A DNA stretch of 64,000 bases from Dysgonomonadaceae bacterium zrk40 (GTDB taxonomy: Bacteria; Bacteroidota; Bacteroidia; Bacteroidales; Dysgonomonadaceae). Where the stretch lies: positions 2,480,001 to 2,544,000 of the forward strand of contig CP070276.1 in the NCBI GenBank assembly GCA_016916535.1, written 5' to 3'. A program made the translations under genes and the position numbers. The notes beneath the pieces were generated by a model. That model saw nothing but the letters and a program-made list of their open reading frames with translations, made no database searches and was not told where the DNA came from. Positions 3,571 through 58,457 of this stretch are shown here, one piece after another. How positions within the stretch are numbered: position 1 is the first letter of the stretch; each line of letters opens with the position of its first letter.

Positions 3571-5292
3571 TTATTCCGGGAACGCGTCATTCTTCGTGGT
3601 AGCATGCAAGCCGATCAGGTTACCGGTGAAGCCGCCTGCAACGTCAGTGGAGAGGATGTCACCGGAGACCGTTCCACCCAGGTTGTGATAACTCTCACCG
3701 TTCGTTGAGTAATTGAAACGATAATCATCCCCTTTTGCGTTGATCTGTAGGCGGATAGTTTTTTTTGTCTCTATAGGGGTACTGGCAAGAACAGTTGAGG
3801 TTCCTCTTTCAGTGCGCTGCAATACCAGATAATCCTGATTGCCTTTACGGGTGATTCCGAAAAGGTAATAGAATCGCTCACTCTGGTAACAAACCATTCC
3901 GGCCAGATCCTTTTCTGAAGCAGGTTGGTATTGCAGTGTAGTGGTGGCAGTAAAATATCTGTGTTGCTGCCGGTGAAAGAGGGTGGAAGTGGGGGCAACC
4001 GCTTTCAGGTTGACAGGGAATGGTGTGAGTGCGAGTCCTTTTTTGTCAGCTTTTGTAAATCCCTCACGGGGTCCTCTCACCCCAATCCAGCGATAGTCCA
4101 GGTCTGATTGGAAATCATCGCGAAAGGTAAAGTTACCATTGGGGAAAAATCCATCTTTACCGGTTTTATTTGTTACTCCTTCCGGCATTTTTAGTTTTGG
4201 TGTCATGGGGATCAGCCCGTTCTCGAATACGGGATACTTACCGCTCCAGTCTACCGGCAGGATGAATGTCTCACGCCCGGTATTGACTCTGTTCTGTTCA
4301 TTCGGGCGGATTGCCAGAAAGACACCATAGTATTTACCGTCGGGACCCTCCACCAAGTCGGCATGTCCGGCCCAGTCCACCTTGTTTGCCCGGTCGGGAT
4401 GCAGGTAACGCTGTGAAAGGATGGGGTTGTTGTCAGCAGGAGTGTAAGGACCTTTTGGGTGATCACTGGTGAAGATCACTTCGCTGTGCCAGTCTCCGGT
4501 ACCCCCCTCGGCACACATCAGGTAATAGATGCCATTTCTCTTGTAAATGTGGGGAGCTTCGATCCAAATAGGTTTTTGCGTGATGTCCACACCTCCATCC
4601 ACAATGATTTGGTCGCTTCCGGGGATTACCTGATCATTTTCCATGTCATATTCCCATATCTTGATGACGCGATGCCCCTCATAAAGTTCTTTGCCCCTGT
4701 CAGGTGCATCGTTGTGAATCACATAGGCCTTACCGTCGTCATCGAAGAAGAGAGAGGGATCGATTCCGCCAAAATTGAGTTTCTGAACTTCACTCCATCC
4801 TTTAAACGGATCCTTTGTTTTTACCACCATGTTGCCAATATCACCGGCAAACTGTGTAGTGATCATGTAAAATGTATCGTTGTAGGGGTTGTACTTGATG
4901 GCCGGAGCATAGATCCCTGCACTAATACCGCTGTCATGTACAATCAGCTGCGATTTCCTGTCGAGCACATGACCTATTTGCTTCCAATTCACCAGATCGT
5001 TGGAGTGAAAGATGGGCACTCCGGGGAACATGGCAAAGGAAGAGGAGACAAGGAAATAATCATCTCCTTTCCTTGTGATGGAGGGGTCGGGGTAACAGCC
5101 CTGGAGAATCGGATTGTAAAACTCGTCCGGTTTTAATGGATTAGATTGGTATACAGGGTCTTCTCCCTGGTAGGTGAATTGGCTGAAAAGGGGCTGATTT
5201 GATTGAACGCTCTTTTGAGCATGTGTACCTGAATAGGTGAACAAAAGGATGCATGCAGTCAGCAGCAGTGGCAGGTTTAAATTTGTTTTCAT
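3571..5292 (-). CDS. GH43 beta-xylosidase/arabinofuranosidase with C-terminal beta-sandwich
   Basis: A 573-residue secreted GH43 enzyme of the two-domain xylosidase type. The signal peptide (about 1-25) ends at GTHAQ. The propeller holds Asp69 in CYPDPSI, Asp178 in GGIDPSLFFDDDG and Glu245 in WIEAPHIYK, the complete catalytic triad. The block FPGVPIFHSNDLVNW is typical of the subfamily 10/11/12 group. Residues from about 380 form the C-terminal concanavalin-like sandwich (GH43_C2 type, with DDFQSDLDYRWIG) that closes the active site in these enzymes. It is the first gene of a four-gene unit downstream of the HTCS gene. Beta-xylosidase or alpha-L-arabinofuranosidase activity is likely; motifs alone do not separate the two. 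Confidence 0.9.
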   Translation of the reverse strand: MKTNLNLPLLLTACILLFTYSGTHAQKSVQSNQPLFSQFTYQGEDPVYQSNPLKPDEFYNPILQGCYPDPSITRKGDDYFLVSSSFAMFPGVPIFHSNDLVNWKQIGHVLDRKSQLIVHDSGISAGIYAPAIKYNPYNDTFYMITTQFAGDIGNMVVKTKDPFKGWSEVQKLNFGGIDPSLFFDDDGKAYVIHNDAPDRGKELYEGHRVIKIWEYDMENDQVIPGSDQIIVDGGVDITQKPIWIEAPHIYKRNGIYYLMCAEGGTGDWHSEVIFTSDHPKGPYTPADNNPILSQRYLHPDRANKVDWAGHADLVEGPDGKYYGVFLAIRPNEQNRVNTGRETFILPVDWSGKYPVFENGLIPMTPKLKMPEGVTNKTGKDGFFPNGNFTFRDDFQSDLDYRWIGVRGPREGFTKADKKGLALTPFPVNLKAVAPTSTLFHRQQHRYFTATTTLQYQPASEKDLAGMVCYQSERFYYLFGITRKGNQDYLVLQRTERGTSTVLASTPIETKKTIRLQINAKGDDYRFNYSTNGESYHNLGGTVSGDILSTDVAGGFTGNLIGLHATTKNDAFPE

Positions 5293-5320: not shown

Positions 5321-5328
5321 CAAATATA
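5321..5328 (-). promoter_or_regulatory. Candidate -7 element for the GH43-CE1-CE1-GH43 unit
   Basis: Read on the minus strand this is TATATTTG, a perfect match to the Bacteroidota -7 consensus TAnnTTTG, about 29 bp upstream of the GH43 ATG at 5292. No TTTG lies at the expected -33 spacing, which would fit activator-dependent transcription. A sequence at 5355-5370 matches the TATTTAGATATTTAAT half of the motif shared by two xylanase promoters at 12 of 16 positions. Confidence 0.4.
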
Positions 5329-5398
5329 GCATGCAACGGGGAGACCGTATCCTGATTTTGGATAGTTAATTCACTTTTATAGATAAAACAAATAAAGT

Positions 5399-8300
5399 TT
5401 ACAGCTTGGAGGGTGATTTTCCGAAATAAGTCTTGAAGGCTGCGCTGAAATATTTCACGCTGGAGAAGCCACATAGCTCACTTACCTCCGTAACGGAATA
5501 TTTTCCGGACTGGATCAGTTTTAGGGCATGGTTTAAACGGATGCTCTTGATGAAATCAATAGGTGAGAGATCTGTCAATGATTTGATCTTCTTGTATAGC
5601 AGTGATGAACTGACATTCATCTCGGAGGCGAAGGTCTCCTTGTTGAATTGCGTGTTGTCCATGTTGGCGTGAACCACACTCACTGCTTTCTTTACAAACT
5701 GATCGTCCAGCTCGTTCAGATAGATTGTTTCTCCATCATCTTCATCAATCAGGCGAAGAGCTTTCTCTTTGACAATCTTCCTATTCTGAATGATGTTGAA
5801 TATACGCTGGTGCAGCAATGTCATGTCGAACGGTTTGGTGAGATAATCATCTGCTCCCAATCCCAATCCGTGCAATTGTTGCGATTTCTCATTCAATGCA
5901 GTTAGTAGGATGACCGGAATATGTGAAGTTTCATACGTCGACTTTACAAGCCTGCATAATTCAAACCCATCCATGTTGGGCATCATCACATCAGAGATAA
6001 TCATATCGGGCATTTTTTTCTGAATCATCTCCCAGGCAATCGCTCCATCTTTTGCGGCTACAATTTTATACCTGCTCTGCAGAGATTGTTGCAGGAACTC
6101 TATAAGGGCATCATTGTCCTCCACAATCAGGAGCTGCTCTTTTTGTTCACTCTCCTGATTGATTGCCGTGATGAATTCCTCTGCCTGCGGAACCATGGAT
6201 GTATGTTTTTCAACACTCTCAATATCGACGTTGAGTGAGGGTGATGTAGCCGACACTTCTTTATAGGGTATGGTTATGCGGAAAAGAGAACCCTCATTCT
6301 CTCTGCTCTCGAGGGAAATGCTCCCTCCGTGCATGGCTACGTAATTTTTCACCAACAGTAGACCGATCCCCGAGCCGACGATGGTTGAATTGACCACGTT
6401 GTCGCCCCTGTAAAACTCCCTAAATAGTTTTCTTTGGGCATTTTCTGAAATCCCCAATCCATGATCTTTTACCTCTAGAATCCATTTGTTTGGATCACAA
6501 TTTAGATTTATTTCGACTTCGCCCTTAGGATGTGAATACTTGATGGCATTTGATAACAGGTTATCAATCACCTTTTCAATTTTCAATTCATCTACTGCAG
6601 TTACATAAGCATCTTTGTTGCTATTGAAAACAAGCTTAACATTTCGTTTTGAGGCAGCGGCATCGAACATCGATCTTCGTTGACGGATAATTTTCACCAC
6701 ATCACTCATCATCAAAAAGGCTTGACCTTTGCCGATGTCAACCTTCTGGAAGTCTAGTAGTTGGTTTGTGACCGAGGAAAGTCTTCCCGCTTGTTCTGTG
6801 GCTAGGTTAAGGTAATAACGTCCCTCGTTAGAGAGGTTTCTCTCCTTGTTTAGTTCGTCGATAGGTGCATTGATCAGTGTCAAGGATGTACGTATGTCGT
6901 GTGCCATGTTGGCAAAAAAGCGAATCTTGTCTTCTGCGTGTTGTTGCCTGATCCGATTGATGTAAAAACGCAGGATAAAGACCAATAACGATATTGTTAA
7001 CAACATGATAGCCAGTCGAAACCAGAACGTCCTCCACCAGGGAGGCGTAATCTGAATCTTTAGTGATCGCTCCTCCACAACCTGTTTGAGTGAGTTGTCA
7101 TACATCCGTATTTTCAGTGAATAGTCACCACTTGGCATGCTGGCATAAGTGATGGCTCCCGAACTGGTCGGTTGGGTCCACTCATCATCTATTCCTTCCA
7201 TTTTCCAGGAGAATTTTGAGTAGAGAGAGGAGGTTCCGATGGGGAGAAACTCCAGAGTAAGTGTGTTTTGGTCGTATTTCAGTGAGATCTCTTCCAGCTC
7301 ATCGAGAGGGGAATCAATGGTGAAAAACTCATTGTTGCGCAAAGATCGTCCTGAGATGACAATATCCTGGAAGTATATTCTCCCCCTTAAGGGTGAAAAA
7401 AGCATCGCATCGGGTTCAAACATCAATGCTCCACTGCTGGTACCCCAAATGAGCTGTCCGTTGGAGAGCTTCAGTGATGCGTTCTGGTTGAAGGATACAT
7501 TGAAGAAGGAGGGCAAGGAGGAGAATATTTCTACATTTTTTTCCTCGGTATCAAATTTACATAGACCGGATTCTGTCCCCAACCAGAGGTGATTCCCTTC
7601 CCGCAGGAGACTGTTCACATAGTTTGAGAGCAATCCCTCATCTGTGGTGAATTTTTCAAGGGTGTTGTCTCTCAGGTTATATCGCAACAGTCCATCTCCG
7701 GAGGTCCCCATCCATACATTGTCACCAATGACAATCAAGTCATGCAGGAGATAACCATCCAGGATTGTGCGTGTTTGTCCCGTTTTTTTATCCATCACAA
7801 GCAATCCGTAGGTACATGCCAGCAGTAGATTGCCGGGTGTGAATTCCTCAAAGGCATATACCGGTTGAAATGGGTAGGCCTTGAAACGCTTCTCACTTTC
7901 AATATAACGGAAGATTTGTCCCAGCGGGCTGCCTAGCCAGAGATCGCCGTGACTGTCCCTGATAATGTCAAAGATATAGTCGTTTGTCAGTGATGAGATT
8001 CCATCATCACTGGAGTAGTGTGCAATCTCTCTGCCGGATATCCCATCGATGACATAGATGCCTGATGAATAGGTTCCTGCCCAGATGTAGCCGTTTCGGT
8101 CCTCACAGAGTGAAAGAAATACCTGTGCCTGCTCCTGTAGGTTCTGATAATAGGTTTGCCATTTGCCTGAAGATGTTTCCCAACGACTTATCCCATTGTT
8201 GGTGGCAAACCAAATGTTACCCCTGCTGTCTTCAATCACTTTGTTGACATTGTCGTTGCTTAGTGAGTTGGGGTTGTTGATCTGATGAGTGATTTGTGTA

Positions 8301-9283
8301 ACCTCAGCCGATTCCTGATCGAAATAGGAAAGTCCCCCACTATATGTACAAACCCAAATACGCTTATTTTGGTCATGTAAGATGTCATAAACCCCATTCC
8401 CCTTCAAAGATAGAGGATTGTCGGGGTTCTCCTTGTAGATGTTCAATACCTGTTGGTTATTACTGTTTAACTCCCAAATCCCCTGTCCGTCAATACCAAC
8501 CATCACTGTTGTATCAGTATTGGCTACAATGGCGTAGATAGGCTGCTTTGGAAACGGTTCAAGCGTTGATTGCTTTAGTTGGTTTCTCTGAAGATTGTAT
8601 AAATACAACCCATTTGCGCTTGTACCCACCCAAACCGTTTCATCTTGTTGGTTGTAATAAAACCGGGTTACGTTCAATTCATTATCCTCTTCATATTTGT
8701 AGATGTGGCGGTCGGTAAGGGAATGGGTATTCATCATCCAGAACCCGTTGTTGGTAGCCATGAACAAATGCAGATCATCAATCCAAATAAAGTCATGCAC
8801 ATCGTGATATTTATCCTTACCCAATGCTATAATTTTCTGGTTCTGATACTTATAGAGACCGGAAGAGGCGGCTATCAGGATGGATCCGTAACGGTCAATT
8901 GCGATCCTTTTTAGCACCAGATGGGTGTCATTCAGAGGTTTACGTATGTCAATGACAAGGTCGAAACGGTCATATACCTCGTTGTAATGAAATATCTGAC
9001 CGTTGTTGGTGAAAGCCAGGAGTGAGTCCTTGTCGTAAAGCAGTTTTGTGGTGATGATGTTAGGCGTTTCATAGGGTAATTGATAGATGTGGTAACTGTT
9101 TTCAGTCAACCGAAGTATGCCGCTCTTAGAGGATGCCCAGATGAATCCATTTCTGTCCTTGCACACCGATGCGACCTCTCTCATGCTTATTCCGTGAATT
9201 GAGTTGATGTCATAGAATTTCACATTGGAAAAGCAGTATGTAACGGAAAGAAAGAGAAGGGCAAATATGAATTTGGGTTTCAT
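5399..9283 (-). CDS. Hybrid two-component system regulator (HTCS), XynR-like
   Basis: A 1294-residue one-protein sensor-regulator that probably senses a xylan oligosaccharide in the periplasm and activates the locus. After a signal peptide come about 14 Reg_prop propeller repeats (roughly 30-640, e.g. VWVGTSANGLYLYN, HLWLGTESGLCKFD), a Y_Y_Y domain (about 660-745) and one membrane helix (about 757-776). The cytoplasmic part has a histidine kinase with His795 in NMAHDIRTSLT, an ATPase domain (GLGISENA, GSGIGLLLVKNY), a receiver with Asp1098 in ISDVMMPNMDG, and a C-terminal AraC-type DNA-binding domain. The frame could extend six bases to a TTG, but the ATG at 9283 is preferred. Its place beside the xylan genes matches XynR of Prevotella bryantii. 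That it controls this whole locus is inference. Confidence 0.95.
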   Translation of the reverse strand: MKPKFIFALLFLSVTYCFSNVKFYDINSIHGISMREVASVCKDRNGFIWASSKSGILRLTENSYHIYQLPYETPNIITTKLLYDKDSLLAFTNNGQIFHYNEVYDRFDLVIDIRKPLNDTHLVLKRIAIDRYGSILIAASSGLYKYQNQKIIALGKDKYHDVHDFIWIDDLHLFMATNNGFWMMNTHSLTDRHIYKYEEDNELNVTRFYYNQQDETVWVGTSANGLYLYNLQRNQLKQSTLEPFPKQPIYAIVANTDTTVMVGIDGQGIWELNSNNQQVLNIYKENPDNPLSLKGNGVYDILHDQNKRIWVCTYSGGLSYFDQESAEVTQITHQINNPNSLSNDNVNKVIEDSRGNIWFATNNGISRWETSSGKWQTYYQNLQEQAQVFLSLCEDRNGYIWAGTYSSGIYVIDGISGREIAHYSSDDGISSLTNDYIFDIIRDSHGDLWLGSPLGQIFRYIESEKRFKAYPFQPVYAFEEFTPGNLLLACTYGLLVMDKKTGQTRTILDGYLLHDLIVIGDNVWMGTSGDGLLRYNLRDNTLEKFTTDEGLLSNYVNSLLREGNHLWLGTESGLCKFDTEEKNVEIFSSLPSFFNVSFNQNASLKLSNGQLIWGTSSGALMFEPDAMLFSPLRGRIYFQDIVISGRSLRNNEFFTIDSPLDELEEISLKYDQNTLTLEFLPIGTSSLYSKFSWKMEGIDDEWTQPTSSGAITYASMPSGDYSLKIRMYDNSLKQVVEERSLKIQITPPWWRTFWFRLAIMLLTISLLVFILRFYINRIRQQHAEDKIRFFANMAHDIRTSLTLINAPIDELNKERNLSNEGRYYLNLATEQAGRLSSVTNQLLDFQKVDIGKGQAFLMMSDVVKIIRQRRSMFDAAASKRNVKLVFNSNKDAYVTAVDELKIEKVIDNLLSNAIKYSHPKGEVEINLNCDPNKWILEVKDHGLGISENAQRKLFREFYRGDNVVNSTIVGSGIGLLLVKNYVAMHGGSISLESRENEGSLFRITIPYKEVSATSPSLNVDIESVEKHTSMVPQAEEFITAINQESEQKEQLLIVEDNDALIEFLQQSLQSRYKIVAAKDGAIAWEMIQKKMPDMIISDVMMPNMDGFELCRLVKSTYETSHIPVILLTALNEKSQQLHGLGLGADDYLTKPFDMTLLHQRIFNIIQNRKIVKEKALRLIDEDDGETIYLNELDDQFVKKAVSVVHANMDNTQFNKETFASEMNVSSSLLYKKIKSLTDLSPIDFIKSIRLNHALKLIQSGKYSVTEVSELCGFSSVKYFSAAFKTYFGKSPSKL

Positions 9284-9380
9284 TGACAATTACTTTCTGA
9301 AAAATCATACAACCATCAGGAAGAGTTTACTTCCTATCGGTAATGGCCCATGATACATTACACATTGTAAAACGATACTT

Positions 9381-9388
9381 CAAAGATA
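9381..9388 (-). promoter_or_regulatory. Candidate -7 element for the HTCS gene
   Basis: On the minus strand this reads TATCTTTG, matching TAnnTTTG, about 98 bp upstream of the HTCS ATG. It lies in the 170-bp gap after the GH3 gene. A -33 TTTG at correct spacing is not evident, but the gap is one of the larger ones in the series and could give the regulator its own basal transcript. Confidence 0.38.
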
Positions 9389-9458
9389 GTAATAATTGTC
9401 AAAAAAACATAAGAGTCGTCTTGTTCTTAAGATTTAAAACTGCTCTCTTGCTTTGTAC

Positions 9459-30709: not shown

Positions 30710-30731
30710 TGTCTCTGAATGTTAGAATTTT

Positions 30732-30770
30732 AAAAAAAAAGAGGACAAGGCATTTTACTTCCTTGCCCTC
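30732..30770 (-). terminator. Intrinsic terminator after the GH10 gene, inside the main gene series
   Basis: On the minus strand the RNA forms a 10-bp stem, GAGGGCAAGG against CCUUGUCCUC with one G-U pair. The loop is 10 nt and nine U residues follow (As at 30732-30740). It begins about 20 bp after the GH10 stop and separates the six-gene core from the GH5 and all downstream enzymes on the same strand. Confidence 0.85.
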
Positions 30771-30791
30771 TTTCGGAATGAAAAGGTTTGG

Positions 30792-32990
30792 TTAATTGCC
30801 TGCTAAACCGTCAGCAAAAGCAGCATAGGTATGCTTCCGGTAAAAACCGCCTTCTGTCCAGAGACCTACCGGCTCACCACCTCTCCAGGAGGAGCTTTCA
30901 GGGCTGTCTGTCGGGCACCAGTGTGCAATACCATACCGCTGGTTAGCAGGTATGATTTCAAAATATTTCTGGATGATGAATTTATAAAATTCACCCATCG
31001 CCTTGTGTTGTGCTTCGGTCATCTGCTTTGTAAGCACTGATGTGCCGTTTTCATCTACAAAGCCCATATCCAGCTCCGTGATCCGGACCAGCTTGCCGGT
31101 TGCGGCCATCAACTCGTACATCTTAACGATATGTTCTTCCTTGCTGGCCTGAGTTGCAGGGTTGGCATGGTAAGAAACGTGCATTTGAGTACCAATGCCA
31201 TCAATGACAGTTACACCGTCTTCCTCCCACTTTTCGATCCACTTGATCAAGCTCTTGAGCTTCTGGTTATCGTCCCAGTCAGATTCCAGGTTGTAATCGT
31301 TTATAAAGAGCTTCATGTCTGCCGGACCGTGCGTGCGGGCCAGTTGTACTGCCGTACGAACATAGTTGTCACCCAGGTAATCCTGCCAGTAGAAGTTGTT
31401 TTGGGCATCCGCTTCCGGAACGTTGCTGGCCGATTGAAGGTCGTACATTCCATCACTGTTGCCATCTGCACCCGAGAGAGGTTCGTTCACCACGTCCCAA
31501 TCCAGTACATACCCATCGGTTGCTTCCATCATTCCGGCAATCCATCTGTCCATGGCCCATGTGAGGGTATCAGCCTTTTCTTCCGGGGTCTGTGGTATCT
31601 TATTCCCTGACTCTTCAATTTCCCAGACGATGTCGTCGAAATAATAGGTGTTGGCTTCCCCGAACACAGACAGGTTGAAAGCGATGGTGTTCGCCCCGAC
31701 CTGACTACCATTGATAGCACCCGTAAAGACATGTTCTTTCCATTCGGTAGTGAAACTGGGGCTTCCAACAAATGCCCAGTGCAGGTACCCTCCGGGTTCA
31801 TTGTGAGCCTGCGACTCTGCATTGGCGGGTTTCTCAGCTCTGTATTTCATGCTGAAGCGAATCTTTTCCCCCTCTTCAAAGTTTTTGGGAACTTTCACGA
31901 AAAACTGTGTATCCCAAGGATTGGCCGGATTGTCACCCGACTTAACTACGATGGCATGTCCTACGCCATCGGCACCCGTTCCGGCAGCACCAATCGTAGC
32001 AGCTTTTGGTCCAACCGTTGCTTCGGTGGCAAAGAAGCTGGAGACATCGTTATTTTCCACATCGCTGTTACTGACTAGGTTAGTCCACCAGGAAATAGAT
32101 TGTGCTTCACTGTGTGATACTTTTACCCATGCTATCTCGTAGGTTCCCACATAATGTCCCGACTGAAGCATCACAAAACTATTGGTTACAAGTCCATTTA
32201 ATTCTGCGGTCACTTCTACCCATTCTTCGGTAATTGGGATTGTTGTGTTTTGAGTATTTCCCCAAGTACCCAATGCCAGTGTAATCTCACCGGCAGTAGT
32301 ACCCTTGATACGAATGGTCACCTTGTGTTTTGTGCCCACAATAGTGGGGATGCCACTTGCTACATGGTATTGGACATCCCAGAAGTTTGCTTGTTTTACT
32401 GGATTTGCTACAACCAGTACTCCATTTTCTACTACAGGTTGTACGGGTCCACCCACCCAACCGGTGAATGGATCTACCGCATAATCCTTCAAGCCATCAA
32501 CCACCTCAACAGTAGCATCCGGATCAATCTCGATTTCCTTATCGGCAATGAGACTGTTCAAATACTTGTTGTTCTGCTGGGCATGCCAGACAAGTGTATG
32601 GCCATATATGGAGATATCTGCAGCTTTTGCCGCTCCCACAAAGGAGGTGACCTGCGAGAAATCCATCGAACCATCCTCTTTCACCACGGACCCAAATTTC
32701 ATGGCGTTTCCGGCGGTGATCTGGTCGAAGTTGGAATTGATGAGTCGGTACATCATTCCCTGATTGCTGTATTCACTGGCAGTGACACCGGCTCCAAGCT
32801 TGAAGATTGGATTGGCGCTTCTGTCCACGTAGCTTTTCAGGGCGTCATATTCGTTGAGGTATTCCATCCCTGCGATCGATTCCGGCTTCTCCACATCGAA
32901 GAGCAGTTTGGTATCGTCCACACATGAACTGGCCAAGGCCAATATCAGGAATATCACTCCGATCTTATTGATTGTATGTTTCATATTCAT
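30792..32990 (-). CDS. xyn10A: GH10 endo-xylanase with tandem CBM insertion, surface lipoprotein
   Basis: A 732-residue lipoprotein (ALASSC-VDD; Asp residues after Cys fit a surface-export signal). The GH10 barrel is split. Residues about 40-145 hold the first strands (NAMKFGSVV, GHTLVWHAQQ), residues about 150-465 hold two CBM4/22-like sandwiches, and the barrel resumes at DTLTWAMDRW. Acid/base is Glu503 in DVVNEPLSG and nucleophile Glu639 in ITELDMG. This insertion architecture is that of the xylan-utilisation-core Xyn10 of Bacteroides intestinalis and Prevotella, and the gene occupies the same place, after the xusE-like gene. It should be the main endo-acting enzyme on polymeric xylan at the cell surface. 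ATGs at 32990 and 32984 are equally possible. Confidence 0.93.
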   Translation of the reverse strand: MNMKHTINKIGVIFLILALASSCVDDTKLLFDVEKPESIAGMEYLNEYDALKSYVDRSANPIFKLGAGVTASEYSNQGMMYRLINSNFDQITAGNAMKFGSVVKEDGSMDFSQVTSFVGAAKAADISIYGHTLVWHAQQNNKYLNSLIADKEIEIDPDATVEVVDGLKDYAVDPFTGWVGGPVQPVVENGVLVVANPVKQANFWDVQYHVASGIPTIVGTKHKVTIRIKGTTAGEITLALGTWGNTQNTTIPITEEWVEVTAELNGLVTNSFVMLQSGHYVGTYEIAWVKVSHSEAQSISWWTNLVSNSDVENNDVSSFFATEATVGPKAATIGAAGTGADGVGHAIVVKSGDNPANPWDTQFFVKVPKNFEEGEKIRFSMKYRAEKPANAESQAHNEPGGYLHWAFVGSPSFTTEWKEHVFTGAINGSQVGANTIAFNLSVFGEANTYYFDDIVWEIEESGNKIPQTPEEKADTLTWAMDRWIAGMMEATDGYVLDWDVVNEPLSGADGNSDGMYDLQSASNVPEADAQNNFYWQDYLGDNYVRTAVQLARTHGPADMKLFINDYNLESDWDDNQKLKSLIKWIEKWEEDGVTVIDGIGTQMHVSYHANPATQASKEEHIVKMYELMAATGKLVRITELDMGFVDENGTSVLTKQMTEAQHKAMGEFYKFIIQKYFEIIPANQRYGIAHWCPTDSPESSSWRGGEPVGLWTEGGFYRKHTYAAFADGLAGN

Positions 32991-40620: not shown

Positions 40621-43600
40621 TTATAACGAGATTCTCAATCCTAAATTAAAACGTTTCTGTGTTGGGTATGCGGAATTGCCACCGGTATTGGATTCACGGT
40701 CATCCGGCATTTTGGTCCACAGGAACAGGTTGTTGCCGTTGGCGAACACTTTCAGGCTGTTCAATCCTACATTCTTCAACCATTTCTCCTGGCTGAAAGT
40801 ATAGGAAACTTCGGCATATTTCAGACGGAGATAGGAGCCGTCATGAAGGTAACGCGTGCCGCTGGTGAAGCCACTGGCGATGGTTCCCCACCTTGGCAAC
40901 GGTACATCGGCATTGTTGTTGTCTTTCGACCAGTATGTTCCTTCGTTGAAGGCGGTATTCTTGATGCCACCCAGACTCTGAAGACCCACGTAGCGGGTTA
41001 CATTGTTCACACCGTAGAACTGAACGAAAGCACTCCATCCCTTGTAATCGGCACCAATTTGGGTGTTGACGGTATTCTGGGGCACTCCGGTAAATCCGTA
41101 GGGAATGTTGTCGAAAGTAGAGATGATACCGTCGGCATCATAGTCGAGAAGGATGTAGTTACCCGGGATACGGGCATCATCCGATTCATCGTGTCCGGTA
41201 GTTCCGTATAGTTCGTCCCAGTTGTTGTAATAACCGTAGTCCACATGTGCGTAGGTCTGGCCAATGGCCTTGTTGGCTGCTTTCTGGTATTCCGGTTTCA
41301 ACAGAGGATCGTCGGCTTCAATCACCTTGTTTTCTGCATGCGTATAGAATACATTCCCCCAGAGGCGCCAGTCGCTATTGAGCTGTTTGTTCCAGCGCAT
41401 CTCCAGTTCGTAACCACTGGTTTCCACTTCACCCAGGTTGGCGGTCGGTGCGGTAGTACCATAATAGGAGGGTACCGAACGACGGTTACCATCGAGCAGG
41501 ATGTTGGATCTGTTTTCCTTGAAGAAGTCGACCGATCCGGAGATCACACCACCGAACATGGCGTAGTCGGCTGCAATGTCAAGCTTGGTGGCTATTTCCC
41601 AGTGTACATTGGGGTTACCCACTTGCGACTCATAATACCACTGATAAGGGCTTTTTGTGGGATTGATTCCTGTCAGAGCCTGGTTGAAAGCACCACCGTA
41701 GCCCCAGGAGTCCATGTAGAGCCAGCGTCCGCCAATGTTGTCATCCCCTAATTGACCGTAGGATGCCCTGAATTTGAGCATGTCGAGCCATTTCAGGTCG
41801 AGACTCTTGATCAGAGGTTCTTCAGAGAACATCCATCCAACAGCACCCGACTGGAAGTAAGCAAAGCGGTATTCAGGAGAGAATTTCTCGGAACCGTTGT
41901 AGGCACCGTTGTATTCCAGCATATAACGTCTGGCATAGTCGTAGGTGGTACGGAAAACCCAGTTCTCACGATAGAAAGGCAACTGGCTTCCGGTAGCATA
42001 CTGCTCACGGCTTACATTCCCCATGGCACCCACGTTGTGGTCGCCAAAGCTGTTGATGTAGTTGAGCTGTCCTGAATAGTTGAGCCTGCGGTAGGTGGCG
42101 CCGTTGTTTACAGAACCTGCGCCGGTCATCCAGGCAATGTTGTTCTGGTAGTCAAACTTGTTGTTTCCGTCAACTGTCACATCGGTGAATACCTCCCCTG
42201 TTTCGGGATGGATCCATTTGTGCGGGTTGTCTTCCCAGTCGTTGGTATCATCGATACCGCGGTTGGTTTCCTGGAAACTGTTGTCGAAGGCCAGTCTTCC
42301 CTGGAGGGAGAGCCCTTTCAGCAGAAATCCCAGATCCTGTTCCAGCGTAAAGTCGGTATAAAGACGGTCGCTGGTGGTATAGCCCACACCGTTCACGCTG
42401 AGGTCTTCCATCGAGTTTGTGGTAGCCTGTGAAGGGTTGGGGTGATAGTACCCGAACGATCCGTCACTGTATTTGGGGCGGAACATATCGGGGGCAATGC
42501 CATAGAAGGCAGCCCATACCAGATTTTCATACTGGAAGTAGTTGGTTCCCTTTGATACGGCATGAGATCCGGAGAGGTTCATCCGCAGGGTGGTTGATTT
42601 GGTCAGTGAGAAGTCCATGTTGCTCCTCACGTTGATACGGTCGTAACCAAATCCGGTATCATAACCGCGGTTGTTGTCCACAGTCTTGTAGATATCTCCT
42701 TCGTGTGCATAGTCCAAGCTGGCAAAATATTTCACGAAGCGGGTACCACCCGATACATTGACGTTTGCATTGTAAGAAGTGGCCACATCTTTCAGCAGCT
42801 CGTCTACCCAGTTCACGTTGGGATAACGCTCAAACTCTTCTACGTTGGCCGGGTAACGATATTTGTTGATGATGTCGTGGGGTCTGTAGTTCACCCACTG
42901 ACTGGGAGCATATCCCAGTTCGTTTTCTATCACCTGGTTGCGCAACATCAGGGCATCATAGGAGTCCATCAGTTCCGGCAACTTCGAATAGGTCTTCATG
43001 GTGGTGCTCACGTTGATGTCTACGTTGGCTTTCCCCTCTTCACCTCGTTTGGTGGTAATCAGGATAACCCCGTTGGCACCGCGCACACCAAAGATGGCCG
43101 TGGCAGAGGCATCTTTCAATACCGAGATGGTTGCCACTGAGTTGATGTCGATTCCGGTCATGGGTCGTTCCACACCATCCACCAGGATCAGGGGAGCACT
43201 TCCGTTCCATGAACTGACCCCACGGATGGTAATCTCGGGGTCTTCTTCTCCGGGCTTACCGGTAGTGGTCATGGTGACCACGCCGGGAAGGTTACCGGTC
43301 AGGGCCTGACCCAAACTGCTCACACCACCGGTGCGTTCCAAAACTTTAGCATTGGTCTGGGCAATGGCACCCACCACACTCTCTTTTCTCTGCTGGCCGT
43401 AGCCAACCACAACCACCTCTTCGAGCAACTCAGTATCCTCAGTCATTGTAACCGAAAGGGTTGTTCTTCCGTTCAACGCGATGGACTGAGGCTGCATTCC
43501 CACATAAGTGACAAGCAGCGTTGCATTGGATGGTACATTGCTTAAGGTAAACCTCCCATCCAGGTCGGTCACCGTTCCGGTGGATTCACCTTCCACCTGT

Positions 43601-43743
43601 ACGGTCACGCCAATCAGGGGTTCTCCTGCTACATCAGATACAGTACCTCTTACGGTAATGTTCTGCGCATAGACAGATAAGGAAAATGCGCACAACAAGG
43701 TGAGACATATTCCTCTCATTAGATTCGAAATTTTTCTTTTCAT
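40621..43743 (-). CDS. xusA: SusC-like TonB-dependent transporter (XusA-like)
   Basis: A 1040-residue outer-membrane transporter and the first gene of the core operon. The signal peptide (about 1-26) is followed by a CarboxypepD_reg-like domain (about 27-105, RGTVSDVAGEPLIGVTVQVE), a TonB box region (EEVVVVGYGQQRKESVVGAI), the plug (RGVSSWNGSAPLILVDGV, LKDASATAIFGVRGANGVI) and a beta-barrel ending in RFNLGLRISL. It is expected to take up xylo-oligosaccharides with the SusD-like partner encoded 8 bp downstream. A 687-bp spacer lies upstream and contains the motif shared with the second GH10 promoter (43891-43930) and GTGCAC palindromes, so transcription of the core operon very probably starts there. 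Confidence 0.94.
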   Translation of the reverse strand: MKRKISNLMRGICLTLLCAFSLSVYAQNITVRGTVSDVAGEPLIGVTVQVEGESTGTVTDLDGRFTLSNVPSNATLLVTYVGMQPQSIALNGRTTLSVTMTEDTELLEEVVVVGYGQQRKESVVGAIAQTNAKVLERTGGVSSLGQALTGNLPGVVTMTTTGKPGEEDPEITIRGVSSWNGSAPLILVDGVERPMTGIDINSVATISVLKDASATAIFGVRGANGVILITTKRGEEGKANVDINVSTTMKTYSKLPELMDSYDALMLRNQVIENELGYAPSQWVNYRPHDIINKYRYPANVEEFERYPNVNWVDELLKDVATSYNANVNVSGGTRFVKYFASLDYAHEGDIYKTVDNNRGYDTGFGYDRINVRSNMDFSLTKSTTLRMNLSGSHAVSKGTNYFQYENLVWAAFYGIAPDMFRPKYSDGSFGYYHPNPSQATTNSMEDLSVNGVGYTTSDRLYTDFTLEQDLGFLLKGLSLQGRLAFDNSFQETNRGIDDTNDWEDNPHKWIHPETGEVFTDVTVDGNNKFDYQNNIAWMTGAGSVNNGATYRRLNYSGQLNYINSFGDHNVGAMGNVSREQYATGSQLPFYRENWVFRTTYDYARRYMLEYNGAYNGSEKFSPEYRFAYFQSGAVGWMFSEEPLIKSLDLKWLDMLKFRASYGQLGDDNIGGRWLYMDSWGYGGAFNQALTGINPTKSPYQWYYESQVGNPNVHWEIATKLDIAADYAMFGGVISGSVDFFKENRSNILLDGNRRSVPSYYGTTAPTANLGEVETSGYELEMRWNKQLNSDWRLWGNVFYTHAENKVIEADDPLLKPEYQKAANKAIGQTYAHVDYGYYNNWDELYGTTGHDESDDARIPGNYILLDYDADGIISTFDNIPYGFTGVPQNTVNTQIGADYKGWSAFVQFYGVNNVTRYVGLQSLGGIKNTAFNEGTYWSKDNNNADVPLPRWGTIASGFTSGTRYLHDGSYLRLKYAEVSYTFSQEKWLKNVGLNSLKVFANGNNLFLWTKMPDDRESNTGGNSAYPTQKRFNLGLRISL

Positions 43744-43858: not shown

Positions 43859-43866
43859 TAAAATTA
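43859..43866 (-). promoter_or_regulatory. Candidate -7 element for the core operon
   Basis: TAATTTTA on the minus strand, one mismatch from TAnnTTTG, lies 24 bp downstream (in transcription direction) of the shared motif and 115 bp before the SusC ATG. The matching element of the second GH10 promoter is 34 bp from its motif copy, one helical turn more. No -33 box is apparent. Confidence 0.35.
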
Positions 43867-43890: not shown

Positions 43891-43930
43891 CCAATATTAG
43901 ATACTTTATTACAATATTTAGATATTTAAT
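43891..43930 (-). promoter_or_regulatory. Shared 40-bp two-part motif, copy 1 (candidate HTCS operator)
   Basis: Plus-strand reading: CCAATATT-A-GATA at 43891-43903, an 11-bp spacer, then TATTTAGATATTTAAT at 43915-43930. The same two blocks with identical spacing occur at 45700-45739 before the second GH10 gene. It lies 148 bp upstream of the SusC ATG. Binding by the HTCS is an inference. Confidence 0.55.
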
Positions 43931-43946
43931 ACTTTTTTTTATCCAT

Positions 43947-43958
43947 GTGCACGTGCAC
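43947..43958. promoter_or_regulatory. Perfect 12-bp palindrome GTGCACGTGCAC
   Basis: Two abutting GTGCAC units form a perfect palindrome, flanked by ATCC on the left and GGAT on the right. A further TGTGCACA lies at 44061-44068. It is about 17 bp upstream of the shared motif. It may bind a dimeric regulator; its function is unknown. Confidence 0.35.
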
Positions 43959-44362
43959 GGATGCTGTAATAATCGAAATCATCTCTCCGTCTGTTGGTTT
44001 AATCTGCAATCTCTTCTACTGTTAGAATGGCATACTTGTAGGGTTTCACTATTTTGTGTATGTGCACAATGTTTTGATTAACATATGTTTAATTAAGTAT
44101 GTCAAAATCTTTGTACAGTTTAAAATATTCAGATCCTCGTCATTTCTTTACCCGGAAACAGGAGAGAATCCCTTTGCAGTTAATCAGATTTTCACACAAA
44201 GGTAAAATGATTTTTTACAAAATCAAGAGCCTGTTTGGGAAAATGATTCGAATTAACATCATGCCATCAGGGAGATTCTTTCCATTCCTGTTCGATATGT
44301 CTGCCAACAAACAGTTGTTATCGCTGAACCCGGGCTGATGTTTCCCAATGGATGAAATTGCA

Positions 44363-44397
44363 CAAATGAAGGAGGGTTGGTCCCTCTCCTTCATTTG
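44363..44397 (-). terminator. Hairpin downstream of the second GH10 gene
   Basis: A perfect 12-bp inverted repeat, CAAATGAAGGAG at 44363-44374 and its complement at 44386-44397, has an 11-nt loop. It begins 34 bp after the GH10 stop. There is no U-tract on the minus strand, so it may act as a weak terminator or a 3'-end stabiliser. Confidence 0.55.
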
Positions 44398-44430
44398 TCT
44401 GCAATATATTCATCAGGATCATCCGTAGGT

Positions 44431-45558
44431 TTATTGTTCCGAAAGCTTGCTGATCAATTGGTTTACTACCCCTTTGGGCTGGTGATCTCTGTCGAAAAGC
44501 AACGGGTAATCGGTGCGTCCTCTTACGGGGAAGTTATTTTTCCATGAATCGGCATCACTTACTCCCCACATGGTAACGCGCAACACATTGTCGCTGTTTT
44601 TCAGGAACAGATCGAAGAAATCCATCATCCTGTTGTCCCAGGCTTCTGCAACCTCCTCAGGCAGTCCTTCGGTATAGGGGTCAATCTCCTTGCGGTATGC
44701 TTCCCTGTCGGCAAGATTGGCACCTCCCATTCTGCGTGGCTCGGGTAGCGGGCTCATATCCAGTTCTGTAACCAAAACTTTTACCCCTGCGTTCACGTAA
44801 TCGTCGATGGTGGCCTGATATTCTTCAATGGTTGGATTGGTCATTCCCACATGTCCCTGCAACCCGATGCCGTCGATGCGAATGCCACGTTCCTTGAGTG
44901 TGTTGATCAGTCTTACAACTGTTTCACGCTTGCCGGGATACCATTCGTTGTAGTCGTTGTAATAGAGTTCAGCTTCCGGATCTGCTTCCTGCGCATACTG
45001 GAATGCCAATGGAATGAACTCTTCTCCCAGGATCTCGTAAAACTTGCTTTTACGGTATGATCCATCTTCCATGATTGCCTCGTTGACCACATCCCAGCCT
45101 TTGATGACGCCCTTGTAACGTCCTACAACGGTATAGATGTGTTCCTTCATCCTTTCTTTCAGGATTTCAGGGCTTACATTCTCACCGTTCTCATCGACAC
45201 AAAACCAGGCGGGCAGTTGTGAATGCCATATCAGGCAGTGTCCCGTGATAGTCAGGTTGTTGTCGACTCCAAACTGAACAAACTCATCGGCCTGAGTGAA
45301 GTCGTAACGATCTTCTTCCGGGTGGATCTCAGCACTTTTCATGCAGTTTTCAGCAACGATGGCATTGAAATGTTGCTGTACGACTTTAGTGGCTGCCGAG
45401 TCATGACCGGCTGCCTGTCGGGTGTTGAGTGCAACGCCGATAAGAAACTTGTCTTGAAGGACATCTTTTAAACCTGGTTCTTCCTTGACCTGGTTGTTGC
45501 CGCATGTCGTGAAGGCTACCGCTGCCGTGAGCAGCAACGCAATTTTCATTTTTTTCAT
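44431..45558 (-). CDS. GH10 endo-xylanase without insertions
   Basis: A 375-residue compact GH10 enzyme with a lipoprotein-type N-terminus (AFTTC-GNNQ). The single barrel has HCLIWHSQLPAWF, acid/base Glu160 in DVVNEAIMEDG, the NDYNEW block, GIGLQGHVGM, nucleophile Glu265 in VTELDMSPLPEPRR, and MWGVSDADSW. It has the normal length for a stand-alone GH10 domain, in contrast to the CBM-split GH10 of the core operon. It is transcribed alone from its own promoter region, which carries the same 40-bp motif as the core operon, and is followed by a hairpin. It probably cuts shorter xylo-oligosaccharides after import or at the surface. The residues after Cys (GNNQ) are not acidic, so a periplasm-facing lipoprotein is the better guess. 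Confidence 0.92.
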   Translation of the reverse strand: MKKMKIALLLTAAVAFTTCGNNQVKEEPGLKDVLQDKFLIGVALNTRQAAGHDSAATKVVQQHFNAIVAENCMKSAEIHPEEDRYDFTQADEFVQFGVDNNLTITGHCLIWHSQLPAWFCVDENGENVSPEILKERMKEHIYTVVGRYKGVIKGWDVVNEAIMEDGSYRKSKFYEILGEEFIPLAFQYAQEADPEAELYYNDYNEWYPGKRETVVRLINTLKERGIRIDGIGLQGHVGMTNPTIEEYQATIDDYVNAGVKVLVTELDMSPLPEPRRMGGANLADREAYRKEIDPYTEGLPEEVAEAWDNRMMDFFDLFLKNSDNVLRVTMWGVSDADSWKNNFPVRGRTDYPLLFDRDHQPKGVVNQLISKLSEQ

Positions 45559-45657
45559 GTTGTTTATCTTCTTATGGTAATTAGGTGATCTGTATCAATT
45601 GTAAAAAATGCCTCAATGATAGAAAACGCAATTTAACTTATCTTCTGTATTTGGTAT

Positions 45658-45665
45658 CAAAATTA
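45658..45665 (-). promoter_or_regulatory. Candidate -7 element for the second GH10 gene
   Basis: TAATTTTG on the minus strand matches TAnnTTTG exactly and lies 99 bp before the ATG at 45558. It is 34 bp downstream of the shared motif at 45700-45739. No clear -33 TTTG is present at 19-21 bp, consistent with activator dependence. Confidence 0.45.
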
Positions 45666-45699
45666 ATACAAATGAACAATGAATAATCGATTCAAAATT

Positions 45700-45739
45700 C
45701 CAATATTCGATATGATTCTTCCTTATTTAGATATTTAAT
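45700..45739 (-). promoter_or_regulatory. Shared 40-bp two-part motif, copy 2 (candidate HTCS operator)
   Basis: CCAATATT-C-GATA at 45700-45712 and TATTTAGATATTTAAT at 45724-45739 (plus-strand reading) repeat the blocks seen before the core operon with the same 24-bp offset. It sits 142 bp upstream of the GH10 ATG, close to the 148 bp of copy 1, whereas the sequence around it is unrelated. Confidence 0.55.
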
Positions 45740-46036
45740 GTCTCATTTATTTGTTGGTTTTTTGGTTGAATCATTTATCCTTTAGGGTTTTATTTCGACA
45801 AAATGAGCTGTTTTCTGCTTTTAAGGTACTGTTTGGACAACCCTATTACAGCACGATTCAGGGTTCTCAGAGCCTCTAGCCTTATTGCACCCTTATTGCA
45901 CCCTTATATCCACTCCAATAATTATCGGAGTGGATATAAGGAAGCAATAAGGTAAAAATATAGAATTAGCAGCCAAAAACATTTGAACAACTTCACTTTT
46001 TGGCCTAAAGTTCTTTCAGGATGTTACAGATTGTAC
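45740..46036. other. Intergenic stretch between the second GH10 promoter and the CE1 terminator
   Basis: About 300 bp without a gene. It holds the repeat structure at 45880-45952; otherwise I see no coding frame or recognisable signal. Confidence 0.5.
45880..45952. repeat. Two-step inverted repeat with 11-bp direct repeats in one arm
   Basis: CCTTATTGCAC is repeated head to tail at 45880-45890 and 45891-45901. A perfect 15-bp inverted repeat (45902-45916 with 45927-45941, 10-nt loop) follows. An outer 9-bp pair, CCTTATTGC at 45891-45899 with GCAATAAGG at 45944-45952, extends the stem to 24 paired bases with a small internal loop. No transposase is nearby. The function is unknown. Confidence 0.75.
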
Positions 46037-46097: not shown

Positions 46098-47324
46098 CTA
46101 ACGGAATAACAGCGGAGCAAACTCACGGAGCGAACGACGCCAGGTGAGCCATTCATGCGCACTTCCGGGTGATTCGTAGTAGACCACATTCTCCAACCCA
46201 TTTCCCTGCAATGCTTCGGCAAACGCTTTTACCCTCTCAGGGTGTTCTTCTTCGCCAATGCTGAGGAACATCAGTTTAACCTGTTTGTTGAATTTCTCAG
46301 GCTTTGTCAAGAGCCCGTCATACAACGTCTCAATCTGGTCCACACCACCGGCACCACCACTGAATCCGCCGAGATAGGCAAATTTGTCCAGATTGGGCAT
46401 CACCACCTGGAAGGTATGCATGCCTCCCATGGAGAGGCCCGCCATGGCACGGCTTTCGCGATCCGTTTTCGTGCGGAAGGAGCTGTCAATCATCGGGACA
46501 ATTTCCTTGACCAGTAATTCAGGGAATACGCTTTGGAATCGAAAAGGTGCTGCTGGGCGTGCAGGTCGCTCGACTGCGGGAGCACCAGGAGCTGGTGCAG
46601 GTGCGTTGGCACCGGCAAGGAAAGCGTTCATGCCAGGATTGTCAAATCTGCCCATGGGCTCACTTCCCGGGACTCTTGCATAGCCGCGATCCATCACGAT
46701 GATCATCGGCACCGCTTTGCCTTCGGCGATCAGGTTGTCCATGATGTCTCCCATCCGTCCCTGGAACACCCATCCTGTTTCATCTTCTCCCCCGCCATGC
46801 TGTAGGTAAAGCACGGGAAAGCGTTGATTGGTGTCCTGGTCGTACTGGGGTGGGGTGTATACATAGCACATGCGCCAGGCTTGTGTCATCTCCGACCAGT
46901 ATTTCTTCATTCTGATCTCACCATGCGGTACGTTTTGTGTCTTGTCGTAAGGCAATCCTTCAGGTATTTCGATGGCACTCACCCATTTACTCATGCCGTA
47001 GTAGGACTTGGTAGCGGGATCGGCCACGTTGACACTGTCGATGACAAGCTGGTAGTAATGGAAGCCCACCGCTTCCGGCTCAGGCGAAACGTAAGTCCAG
47101 TAACCGTCAGCCTCACGTGTCATGGGCCCGCGGAAACTGATCTGCACATTTTTTGCATTGGGTGCAAATACCCTGAAGTAGGTGTGTCCTTTATCATCCA
47201 CACGGGGCCATTGCACTCCCTCGAGGTTGTGTTCGTTTGGAAAAGAGCCTTCCGGAAATTCCTGGGCTGCGATCATCAATGGGAAGATCATCGCCAGAAC
47301 AACGAGAAATGTTGTTTTTTTCAT
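46098..47324 (-). CDS. CE1-family esterase with CBM48-like domain and Ala/Pro-rich insertion
   Basis: A 408-residue secreted esterase. The signal peptide (about 1-20, ending MIAAQ) precedes a CBM48-like domain (about 35-120, VGFHYYQLVIDSV). A CE1 domain with [28 protein letters not shown], nucleophile Ser298 in GLSMGGM and the His region [12 protein letters not shown] follows. An insertion of about 30 residues rich in Ala and Pro (about 230-258, APAPAPGAPAVERPARPAAP) interrupts the catalytic domain before the nucleophile and is absent from the two CE1 paralogues at the left end. The gene is third in an operon with a SusC/SusD pair and is followed by a strong terminator. Feruloyl or acetyl esterase activity is expected. 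Confidence 0.87.
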   Translation of the reverse strand: MKKTTFLVVLAMIFPLMIAAQEFPEGSFPNEHNLEGVQWPRVDDKGHTYFRVFAPNAKNVQISFRGPMTREADGYWTYVSPEPEAVGFHYYQLVIDSVNVADPATKSYYGMSKWVSAIEIPEGLPYDKTQNVPHGEIRMKKYWSEMTQAWRMCYVYTPPQYDQDTNQRFPVLYLQHGGGEDETGWVFQGRMGDIMDNLIAEGKAVPMIIVMDRGYARVPGSEPMGRFDNPGMNAFLAGANAPAPAPGAPAVERPARPAAPFRFQSVFPELLVKEIVPMIDSSFRTKTDRESRAMAGLSMGGMHTFQVVMPNLDKFAYLGGFSGGAGGVDQIETLYDGLLTKPEKFNKQVKLMFLSIGEEEHPERVKAFAEALQGNGLENVVYYESPGSAHEWLTWRRSLREFAPLLFR

Positions 47325-52100: not shown

Positions 52101-52246
52101 CCGTGTTGGGTTCCTTTTTCCAGGATGGTAACACCCGGAATCGGTTCGCCTTGATTGTCCGTGACAGTGCCTCTCACCTGCAGCTGTGCATATGAGGCAA
52201 TGCTTAGACAAAAGCAAATAAAGAAAAACAGAACTCTTTTTTTCAT
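49130..52246 (-). CDS. SusC-like TonB-dependent transporter (third pair)
   Basis: A 1038-residue outer-membrane transporter: signal peptide (about 1-20), CarboxypepD_reg-like domain (about 22-100, VRGTVTDNQGEPIPGVTILE), TonB box region (DEIVVVGYGTMRKSDISGAI), plug (IRVRGYSSNSGNIGPLLIVDG, ILKDAASAAIYGAQAGNGVV) and beta-barrel ending SKKITFGLNITF. It is the first gene of a three-gene operon with SusD-like and CE1 genes. Upstream it diverges from the GH43-CBM6 gene across a 330-bp spacer. It is too different from the core transporters to be a recent duplicate. The substrate is inferred to be a xylan-derived oligosaccharide. Confidence 0.94.
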   Translation of the reverse strand: MKKRVLFFFICFCLSIASYAQLQVRGTVTDNQGEPIPGVTILEKGTQHGVITDIDGIYNIAVEGPESILQFSFVGMDTWEVVVGNQSVINVVMNETATDLDEIVVVGYGTMRKSDISGAISSVRSDALENIVTSDAAAALQGKASGVQVLTNSGAPGQGASIRVRGYSSNSGNIGPLLIVDGLQVDNIQYLDPSMIESIEILKDAASAAIYGAQAGNGVVLVTTKSGASAIGSSSISYDVSYANQSLARHPQIFGADDFIDYKRMSGLPIDAQLEANNYDNTDTNWFEAVFAPSWSQKHTVTFQGGNNQGNYFTSLNYIHNDGIVKGEKDVYKRLSAQINADYNIKSWLQVGTNNSIEKWSTRSVPHMSQYGSLMNSVLTIDPLTPVYYSGPDQFAPTMKQAYDEGKIILRDPDNGLYYATSKYITDDSGNPLLQRDRVDSENKGVTLRGMIFGNLKPVKGLVITSRLGYRVSQSNSHSFNTPYYATPQAKSDDYNISANANTGLYYQFENFANYNITLDQHAITAMAGMSYIENSWDNVSTSAQGPDILTGYEPNFRYMDYVKSNMVDGEEKTVKSYGNLPGKSAQMSYFGRLIYTYDNRYTLQANFRADAFDSSKLPADNRWGYFPSFSAGWTVSNEKFFSENLNMDIFSFLRLRASWGRNGNINVLNDYRYSTTIAYNSSWYQYGVEDSGPSYGSKPSGLANPNLRWETSDQLDLGVEMRFLRNRLAISADYYDKKTKDLLVNINPVPELGVAETTVNAGSVLNRGLELEASWRDNIGQDFSYSVSANFSTLHNEVTFLDPSIARLEGATGGVDGTNNPIRTAFEVGHPIWYFRGYQYEGVNPETGEAILTDINGDGNISDGDMTYLGKAIPDYTYGLNINLAYKGVDLSMFGSGVGGNDIFTVLYRADTPMRNSLKYYYDNAWTPENKNASMPNPQAVATDWHFWGSSASMFSGSYFKIKQLQLGYTLPVEITQQALINKLRLYVSLDDFFTFTSYPGVDPETATVSTAPQRAGFDNGTYPQSKKITFGLNITF

Positions 52247-52576
52247 AGAAATAGAATTTAAAAAATAAATTAATTTAACAAACGTGGCATTTTTTTCACA
52301 ATATTAGGGGTATGCACAGAGGTAAGGGTTAAATAATCTTTGAGAATGGTGGATTTTTTCGTGAAGAAAAGTTTTGTCCACGTTTAGATATGAATAATCC
52401 TCCCGACAGGCAGTTTCAATGTGCCAGCGTCTGAATAGTTTCCCATGACTCATAACCATATCCACCGTTCATATAGATTCGTCCCCCATGCGAAAGAAAA
52501 GATTGTTTATCTTTGTTCGCACATATTGCAGTGACATCCCGTTGTGAGCCGTATGGGTATTGTTGAATTATTAATC
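52247..52576. promoter_or_regulatory. Divergent promoter region, third SusC pair / GH43-CBM6
   Basis: A 330-bp spacer between divergent genes. Plus strand: TATCTTTG at 52508-52515 is a perfect TAnnTTTG about 60 bp before the GH43 start. Minus strand: TAATATTG at 52299-52306 is a one-mismatch -7 about 53 bp before the SusC start. TTTAGATAT at 52383-52391 equals the core of the motif shared by two xylanase promoters, but the CCAATATT block is absent at the expected distance. Confidence 0.45.
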
Positions 52577-58237: not shown

Positions 58238-58263
58238 TTTAGGGTAACGTTGCGAGTGAAGAA

Positions 58264-58294
58264 CAAAAGTATGAATAAACTTATGAACTGCAAA
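58264..58294 (-). promoter_or_regulatory. Consensus Bacteroidota promoter of the second HTCS gene
   Basis: On the minus strand TTTG (58291-58294), a 19-bp spacer and TACTTTTG (58264-58271) match the TTTG / TAnnTTTG pattern at the right distance. It would start RNA about 20 bp before the ATG at 58237, fitting constitutive expression of a sensor. Confidence 0.65.
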
Positions 58295-58457
58295 CATAGA
58301 AAACAGGGTTGATCAAACAGAGGATTATTTTTTCATTGATGGGTACAAAATTTATCGAACCGTTCACATCCTGTCCGTGAGGCTCTTTTTTTTTCAAAGA
58401 TGTTAATTAATCCTCTTAAAAAATTAGTTTGGCCACTACTTTTCAGGAAAAACGGGT

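Follow-up and report, generated by a model that had tools for sequence, protein, structure and literature searches.

Why does a xylan PUL with two HTCS regulators carry the same promoter sequence in front of two xylanase units, and which regulator, if either, would bind it? The window (the whole stretch of DNA analysed here, 64,000 nucleotides) contains two tandem susC/D pairs, genes for GH10, GH5, GH43, GH8, GH115, GH31, GH97, GH95, GH3 and esterases, and two HTCSs; the closest named relatives of its genome are Proteiniphilum. An earlier note on this DNA had described a two-block motif of 40 bp before the core susC operon and the second GH10 gene, and had proposed it as the operator of an HTCS. 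The features considered in this study are shown in Table 1.

HTCS1 is found at the far end of a long minus-strand gene row. Its Pfam domains, all within a single protein, are ordered as a periplasmic propeller sensor, Y_Y_Y, HisKA, HATPase, a receiver and an AraC-type HTH. Within the gene row, between the first GH10 gene and a GH5 gene (28745-30709), a hairpin resembling a terminator, with a U run after it, occurs at 30725-30775, where the core operon, whose extent we infer, may end or be damped. A very stable hairpin (45885-45955; -44.5 kcal/mol, z -11.8) lies between an esterase gene (46098-47324) and the GH10 operator and is probably the terminator of the third susC/D-esterase unit.

Table 1. 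Coordinates of genes and of predicted promoter elements in the window.
Feature	Position	Strand	Remarks
GH43 gene behind third operator	3571..5292	-	Glyco_hydro_43 and GH43_C2
-7 element of GH43 promoter, TATATTTG	5321..5328	-	29 bp past second half-site; 6/6 bases
Predicted GH43 gene operator (third), TATCTAT-N14-TATCCAA	5358..5385	-	matrix score 20.6
HTCS1	5399..9289	-	Reg_prop, Y_Y_Y, HisKA, HATPase_c, Response_reg, HTH_18; listed start TTG (provisional)
First GH10 xylanase gene, sixth of core operon	30792..32990	-	Glyco_hydro_10, E 1e-48
susC-like gene, first of core operon	40621..43743	-	Plug, CarbopepD_reg_2
Candidate -7 element of susC promoter, TAATTTTA	43859..43866	-	30 bp past second half-site; 5/6 fixed bases of TAnnTTTG
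Predicted core susC operon operator, TATCTAA-N14-TATCTAA	43897..43924	-	exact half-sites, 21-bp period; matrix score 43.5 (window not in training)
LacI-type palindrome, TGTGCACGTGCACG	43946..43959		22 bp upstream of susC repeat; genome pattern count 3
Second GH10 xylanase gene	44431..45558	-	Glyco_hydro_10, E 1.2e-96
Candidate -7 element of GH10 promoter, TTCATTTG	45669..45676	-	29 bp past second half-site, 23 bp past 40-bp motif; 5/6 bases
Predicted second GH10 gene operator, TATCTAA-N14-TATCGAA	45706..45733	-	matrix score 30.9
HTCS2	54008-58297		beside third susC/D pair; also a full HTCS

Repeat structure and promoter spacing

The 40-bp motif was found at 43891-43930 and 45700-45739 with no mismatch in either copy. 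The spacing of 24 bp between the block starts and the distances to the start codons, 148 bp (ATG 43743) and 142 bp (ATG 45558), were as the earlier note had given them. When the window was shuffled 100 times at the dinucleotide level, no match with up to three mismatches arose, and the 16-mer TATTTAGATATTTAAT has exactly two copies in the 3.47-Mb genome, at the susC and GH10 promoters. The reading as two separate blocks holds for the exact sequence but not for its structure: on the minus (gene) strand the blocks are two half-sites of one imperfect direct repeat, TATCnAA-N14-TATCnAA, with a period of 21 bp. The susC copy reads TATCTAAATATTG-N8-TATCTAATATTGG and the GH10 copy TATCTAAATAAGG-N8-TATCGAATATTGG; in both, two like units 21 bp apart are stacked on the same helix face, each unit consisting of TATCTRA followed by weaker TGGRAAT-like bases.

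A matrix of 44 columns was built from 16 sites of relatives, with the window excluded from training and the -7 element outside the matrix. Scanning with this matrix revealed exactly three window sites at a score of at least 15, at the susC, GH10 and GH43 promoters. The fourth match (13.1) is the susC site in a shifted register, and the largest score in six block shuffles was 11.8. The GH43 site scores below the other two and has three mismatches in its half-sites; it is the second-best match, with two mismatches, in the genome-wide scan for the full promoter pattern. A half-like match noticed earlier at 5355-5370 does exist, but it is part of this complete third site, with TATATTTG at 29 bp. 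Likewise, the 9-mer at 52383-52391 before the third susC is present as a lone half-site; as an operator it was rejected, its score of 5.3 lying within noise when set against the shuffle maximum.

TAnnTTTG at -7 is the primary-sigma promoter element of Bacteroidetes, and a TTTG element occurs near -33 in such promoters, according to the part of the source covered (PMC7366714). With its 3' part, the proximal repeat unit of the window promoters extends over the -33 region, and it would end near the place where an activator can touch polymerase. Candidate -7 elements had been placed 24 bp (TAATTTTA, susC) and 34 bp (TAATTTTG, GH10) downstream of the motif, a difference taken as one helical turn. 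Both elements exist; the one kept at the GH10 promoter in relatives, however, is TTCATTTG, and the distances from the second half-site are then alike, 30 and 29 bp, which removes the helical-turn difference. TAATTTTG matches all six bases but is not conserved among the aligned relatives, and we set it aside as the GH10 element; sequence alone does not decide the choice, and it may still be used.

Comparison with relatives revealed the same arrangement. Five genomes (G057, G056, G087, G060 and G071) have a site at the matching position of their GH10 promoters, with TTCATTTG, TTTATTTG or TTAATTTG at 29-30 bp. Among 65 distinct matrix matches of at least 15 in genomes with an HTCS1-type regulator, taken with no hand selection and including 15 of the 16 training sites, 54 have at least five of the six TAnnTTTG bases at 29 or 30 bp; the other 58 offsets gave 29 such matches in 3770 site-offset cells. 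In a hand-picked list of 37 sites, which omitted register-shifted and secondary matrix matches (e.g. L166 715 at 18.3, L179 8423, L180 13966 and L184 6429), the -7 element is at 29-30 bp in 36 and complete in all six bases in 23. A scan for sigma-70 type promoters was uninformative (3 found, 5.4 expected).

Occurrence of the site in the genome and in the order

A search of the whole genome for the full promoter pattern with up to three mismatches found four places, three of which are the window sites; the backwards pattern was found at two. The fourth place, at 839855, has no matrix match of at least 15 in its 20-kb stretch and was taken as chance. The scatter over non-promoter sites that the earlier note had named as evidence against an operator was thus not observed, and the conservation at orthologous loci that it had asked about was found in related genomes.

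The spacing of the half-sites is also specific. Pairs of TATCT[AG]A with 13-14 of 14 bases matching numbered 29 at a gap of 14, five of them inside ORFs, whereas every other gap between 5 and 25 gave 0-9; the count covers 63 sources (the window, 24 named loci and 38 other genome stretches) in which some DNA is duplicated. Background loci of 1,151,714 bp contained two matrix matches of at least 15, both lacking a -7 element, so that joint matches of matrix and -7 element amount to none in 1.15 Mb of background versus three in the 64-kb window. The half-sites are rich in A+T and many arise singly by chance, which could make the repeat a coincidence or a by-product of A+T-rich spacers. The joint matches and the shuffled windows speak against this explanation and conservation already refutes it; we regard its probability as negligible.

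Analysis of 393 genomes of the order with a stricter version of the full promoter pattern (up to one mismatch) revealed 10 places in eight genomes; as background, the backwards version matched in five genomes. Homologues of window PUL genes occur in six of the 10 stretches (L182, L203, L206, L207, L208 and L209), and none are listed for L204, L205, L210 and L211. Three of the 10 (L204, L205 and L211) have neither a xylan gene nor a matrix match. An HTCS1-type regulator was found in 14 of the 393 genomes, and these 14 include five of the eight genomes with the strict pattern (Fisher 1.4e-6) and none of the five with the backwards pattern.

The predicted regulator of the site

The receiver and DNA-binding domain of HTCS1, encoded at 5402-6169 on the minus strand, has no close paralogue in its genome, the next best being 38% identical and HTCS2 31%. 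Among the retrieved stretches, identities to this domain were either at least 50% or at most 39%. A table of 53 genomes, in which the matrix was retrained leaving each genome out, showed the site in 27 of 29 genomes with an HTCS1-type DNA-binding domain, in none of 10 with only other HTCSs and in three of 14 with no HTCS in the retrieved stretch (G262, L038 and L051). For the association of the site with the HTCS1 type the Fisher value is 1.3e-9, over rows that are not independent. Seven of the 53 genomes were retrieved via the motif (G240, G241, G262, G317, G327, G397 and G430), and G241, G317, G327 and G397 were found by protein search too. Ten genomes outside the training set were retrieved by the HTCS1-type protein alone, and eight of them have a site of at least 15 near the gene. 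The other two, G388 and G171, encode a regulator of the HTCS1 type (58-59%) yet show no site of at least 15 in the retrieved stretch. In the window's own genome, one of six neighbourhoods of other HTCSs has a match (15.6), which lacks a -7 element.

HTCS2, alone or together with HTCS1, might bind the repeat, given that it is also a full HTCS and, at 8 kb, is closer to the GH10 operator than HTCS1 is. Its low domain identity to HTCS1 argues against such binding, as do genomes in which the two regulators are separated. Three genomes (G011, G015 and G017) have HTCS1 and the site with no HTCS2 match reaching E 1e-250, and the retrieved stretches of G075 and G076 have an HTCS2-type gene, no HTCS1-type gene and no site. 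At E 1e-250, HTCS1 was found in 15 and an HTCS2 match in 13 of 101 genomes of the family. The third susC, which adjoins HTCS2, has a different conserved promoter block. HTCS2 was rejected on these grounds, and we consider its binding to the repeat, alone or shared, very improbable.

The third susC promoters (52246-52420 in the window) of many retrieved relatives share a block of approximately GGAGGA, AAATAATCCnCC and AAAGATTAATTAAC, followed by a -7-like TAnTTTTG. The block is without TATCTRA, no 21-bp tandem repeat before the third susC was common to the relatives, and the block is a candidate HTCS2 operator. In several HTCS2 relatives within the genus (L134-L136, L140 and L145), the aligned frame contains one or two in-frame TAA stops, which may reflect decay of HTCS2 or faulty assemblies.

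The motif might also be used by a regulator encoded elsewhere or be a general promoter part, its link with HTCS1 reflecting shared ancestry; orthologous sites are not independent, and one genus gives many rows of the table. A general promoter part would be expected at more than three genomic places, and the site follows the HTCS1 type rather than susC similarity, outside the family too. Similarity of susC is no predictor of the site, because the site is absent from Prevotella, Parabacteroides and Mediterranea loci with susC 66-73% identical and present in G011, G015 and G017 with susC only 55-56% identical. In G006 and G025, furthermore, the site and HTCS1 have relocated together: the susC there neighbours another HTCS (33-34%) and has no site, and the HTCS1-type gene is found elsewhere with a site directly behind it. 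A counterpart of the window's third site, placed after the HTCS1-type gene, was found in L153, L154, L156-L159, L169, L175, L179 and L181. Shared ancestry with a different binder is accordingly given as little weight by us as binding by HTCS2.

The susC site of G056 is decayed (no match of at least 12). In G073 (L188 639-6308) there is no susC site, and GH10, esterase and susC are closely spaced behind one site, an arrangement that would account for the absence. The region before HTCS1 itself (window 9289-9459) has no matrix match. Sites before apparent HTCS1-type genes (ORFs of 1282 and 1296 aa) occur in L236 and L054, which suggests autoregulation of the HTCS1-type gene in these genomes.

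Overall, these comparisons support the proposal that an HTCS operator ties both xylanases together: the motif is not scattered, is conserved, and tracks HTCS1 and not HTCS2.

Proposed activation and comparison with known systems

Our analysis suggests, with a probability of roughly 0.88, that the repeat is the operator of phosphorylated HTCS1, which would bind as a tandem dimer beside polymerase and activate the susC operon, the second GH10 gene and the GH43 gene. HTCS1, a membrane-bound hybrid two-component regulator, is the predicted binder of all three operators. Xylan oligosaccharides in the periplasm would lead to phosphorylation of the receiver, by which the DNA-binding domain would be freed. 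One AraC-type DNA-binding domain would occupy each 21-bp unit, the two domains lying head to tail and two helical turns apart. The bound pair would end just upstream of RNA polymerase, with the -7 element 29-30 bp further on. Three transcripts would be activated: the core susC operon including its GH10, the second GH10 gene and the GH43 gene adjoining HTCS1. On this reading the motif would predict the genes that the sugar-sensing regulator switches on.

The same site could instead serve repression, with unphosphorylated HTCS1 blocking transcription and leaving on signal. Such a model has been drawn for the arabinoxylan PUL of B. intestinalis, with the DNA sequence left unspecified in the text covered (PMC7815789), and one B. 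theta HTCS is described as a repressor in the part of another source covered (PMC11253607). The repeat, however, keeps a constant distance on the upstream side of the -7 element, in the manner of AraC-type activators, and is not placed over the start site. HTCS1 contains the sequence SHIP, which the same source links with a DNA-binding domain that stays closed until phosphorylation takes place (PMC11253607), and an insertion mutant of the xylan-PUL HTCS of B. xylanisolvens showed lower expression of the genes of both operons (PMC4855328). Because HTCS1 has SHIP and the B. xylanisolvens mutant lost expression, activation is likelier than release of repression; repression by HTCS1 is in our estimate unlikely, though less so than a different binder.

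A palindrome with a central CG is a trait of LacI-family operators, and a candidate of this type was identified at the susC promoter. The pattern YGTGNACGTNCACR occurs at exactly three places in the genome, and a control pattern gave one match per strand. The other two copies are at C1:2464290-2464303 and C1:2549285-2549298. All three places belong to xylan genes: the susC operon, a row of MFS_2 transporter, GH10, GH43, GH67, UxuA, reductase and kinase genes, and a GH3 gene. The GH3 gene adjoins two of the five LacI-family genes of the genome, at L251 7511-8695 and 8772-9860, and one palindrome is 2.4 kb from a LacI-family pair. A related pattern was found at six distinct places in 1.72 Mb of retrieved loci, namely five susC promoters of the genus (G000, G057, G056, G087 and G060) and one position before the GH3 gene of G060; it is absent from the susC promoter of L038. 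The palindrome probably provides a second input, one confined to the susC promoter and lacking at GH10 and GH43.

A wider reading would be that TATCTRA-N14-TATCTRA-N29/30-TAnnTTTG marks the genes that HTCS1-type regulators control directly in several families of the order, and that in this genus import is also gated by a LacI-type regulator; we see the arguments for and against it as evenly balanced. If true, xylan regulons could be read from unannotated genomes; the same pattern alone recovered xylan-type gene clusters in other genomes. Import would be gated by two signals, an outer oligosaccharide via HTCS1 and a cytoplasmic product via LacI, with sharing of the palindrome limited to the xyloside transporter-GH10-GH43-GH67 operon and the GH3 gene. 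This study names a precise sequence, its promoter spacing, three targets and one likely regulator.

AraC-type activators bind tandem half-sites that are oriented head to tail and spaced by about two turns, with the proximal half-site close to polymerase. Unlike these activators, HTCS1 would be membrane-bound and gated by phosphorylation, and its predicted promoters are of the Bacteroidetes -7 (TAnnTTTG) type. A xylan PUL of similar content is PUL 43 of B. xylanisolvens, with two tandem susC/D pairs, GH5, GH10, GH43, GH95, GH115 and an esterase, in which one HTCS (BXY_29350) controls two operons and a distant cluster (PMC4855328). The text covered of that paper gives no operator, and BXY_29350 is likened here to HTCS1 with no orthology implied. 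No operator of a xylan HTCS was found in the open-access PubMed Central text covered.

The closest likeness is to the HTCS operators of B. thetaiotaomicron: Ravcheev et al. (2013, PMC3878776) predicted direct repeats for all 16 treatable HTCSs, spaced 21 bp apart on average. In the parts of that paper covered, the operators are likewise two-box direct repeats with a non-conserved spacer and about 21 bp between tandem sites (here a 14-bp gap plus a 7-bp box), are found upstream of PUL operons, and are conserved with their HTCS; a dimer on one face of the DNA is the model there, as proposed here (PMC3878776). The HTCS type and the box, TATCTRA, differ, the likeness being one of architecture, and xylan is not among the predicted functions in the entries covered of Table 1 in that paper (PMC3878776). 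To those predictions (PMC3878776) the present analysis adds the fixed distance of 29-30 bp between repeat and -7 element. Compared with these systems, the present operator appears to be real and of an ordinary kind, well pinned to one regulator, and new as a member of the HTCS operators.
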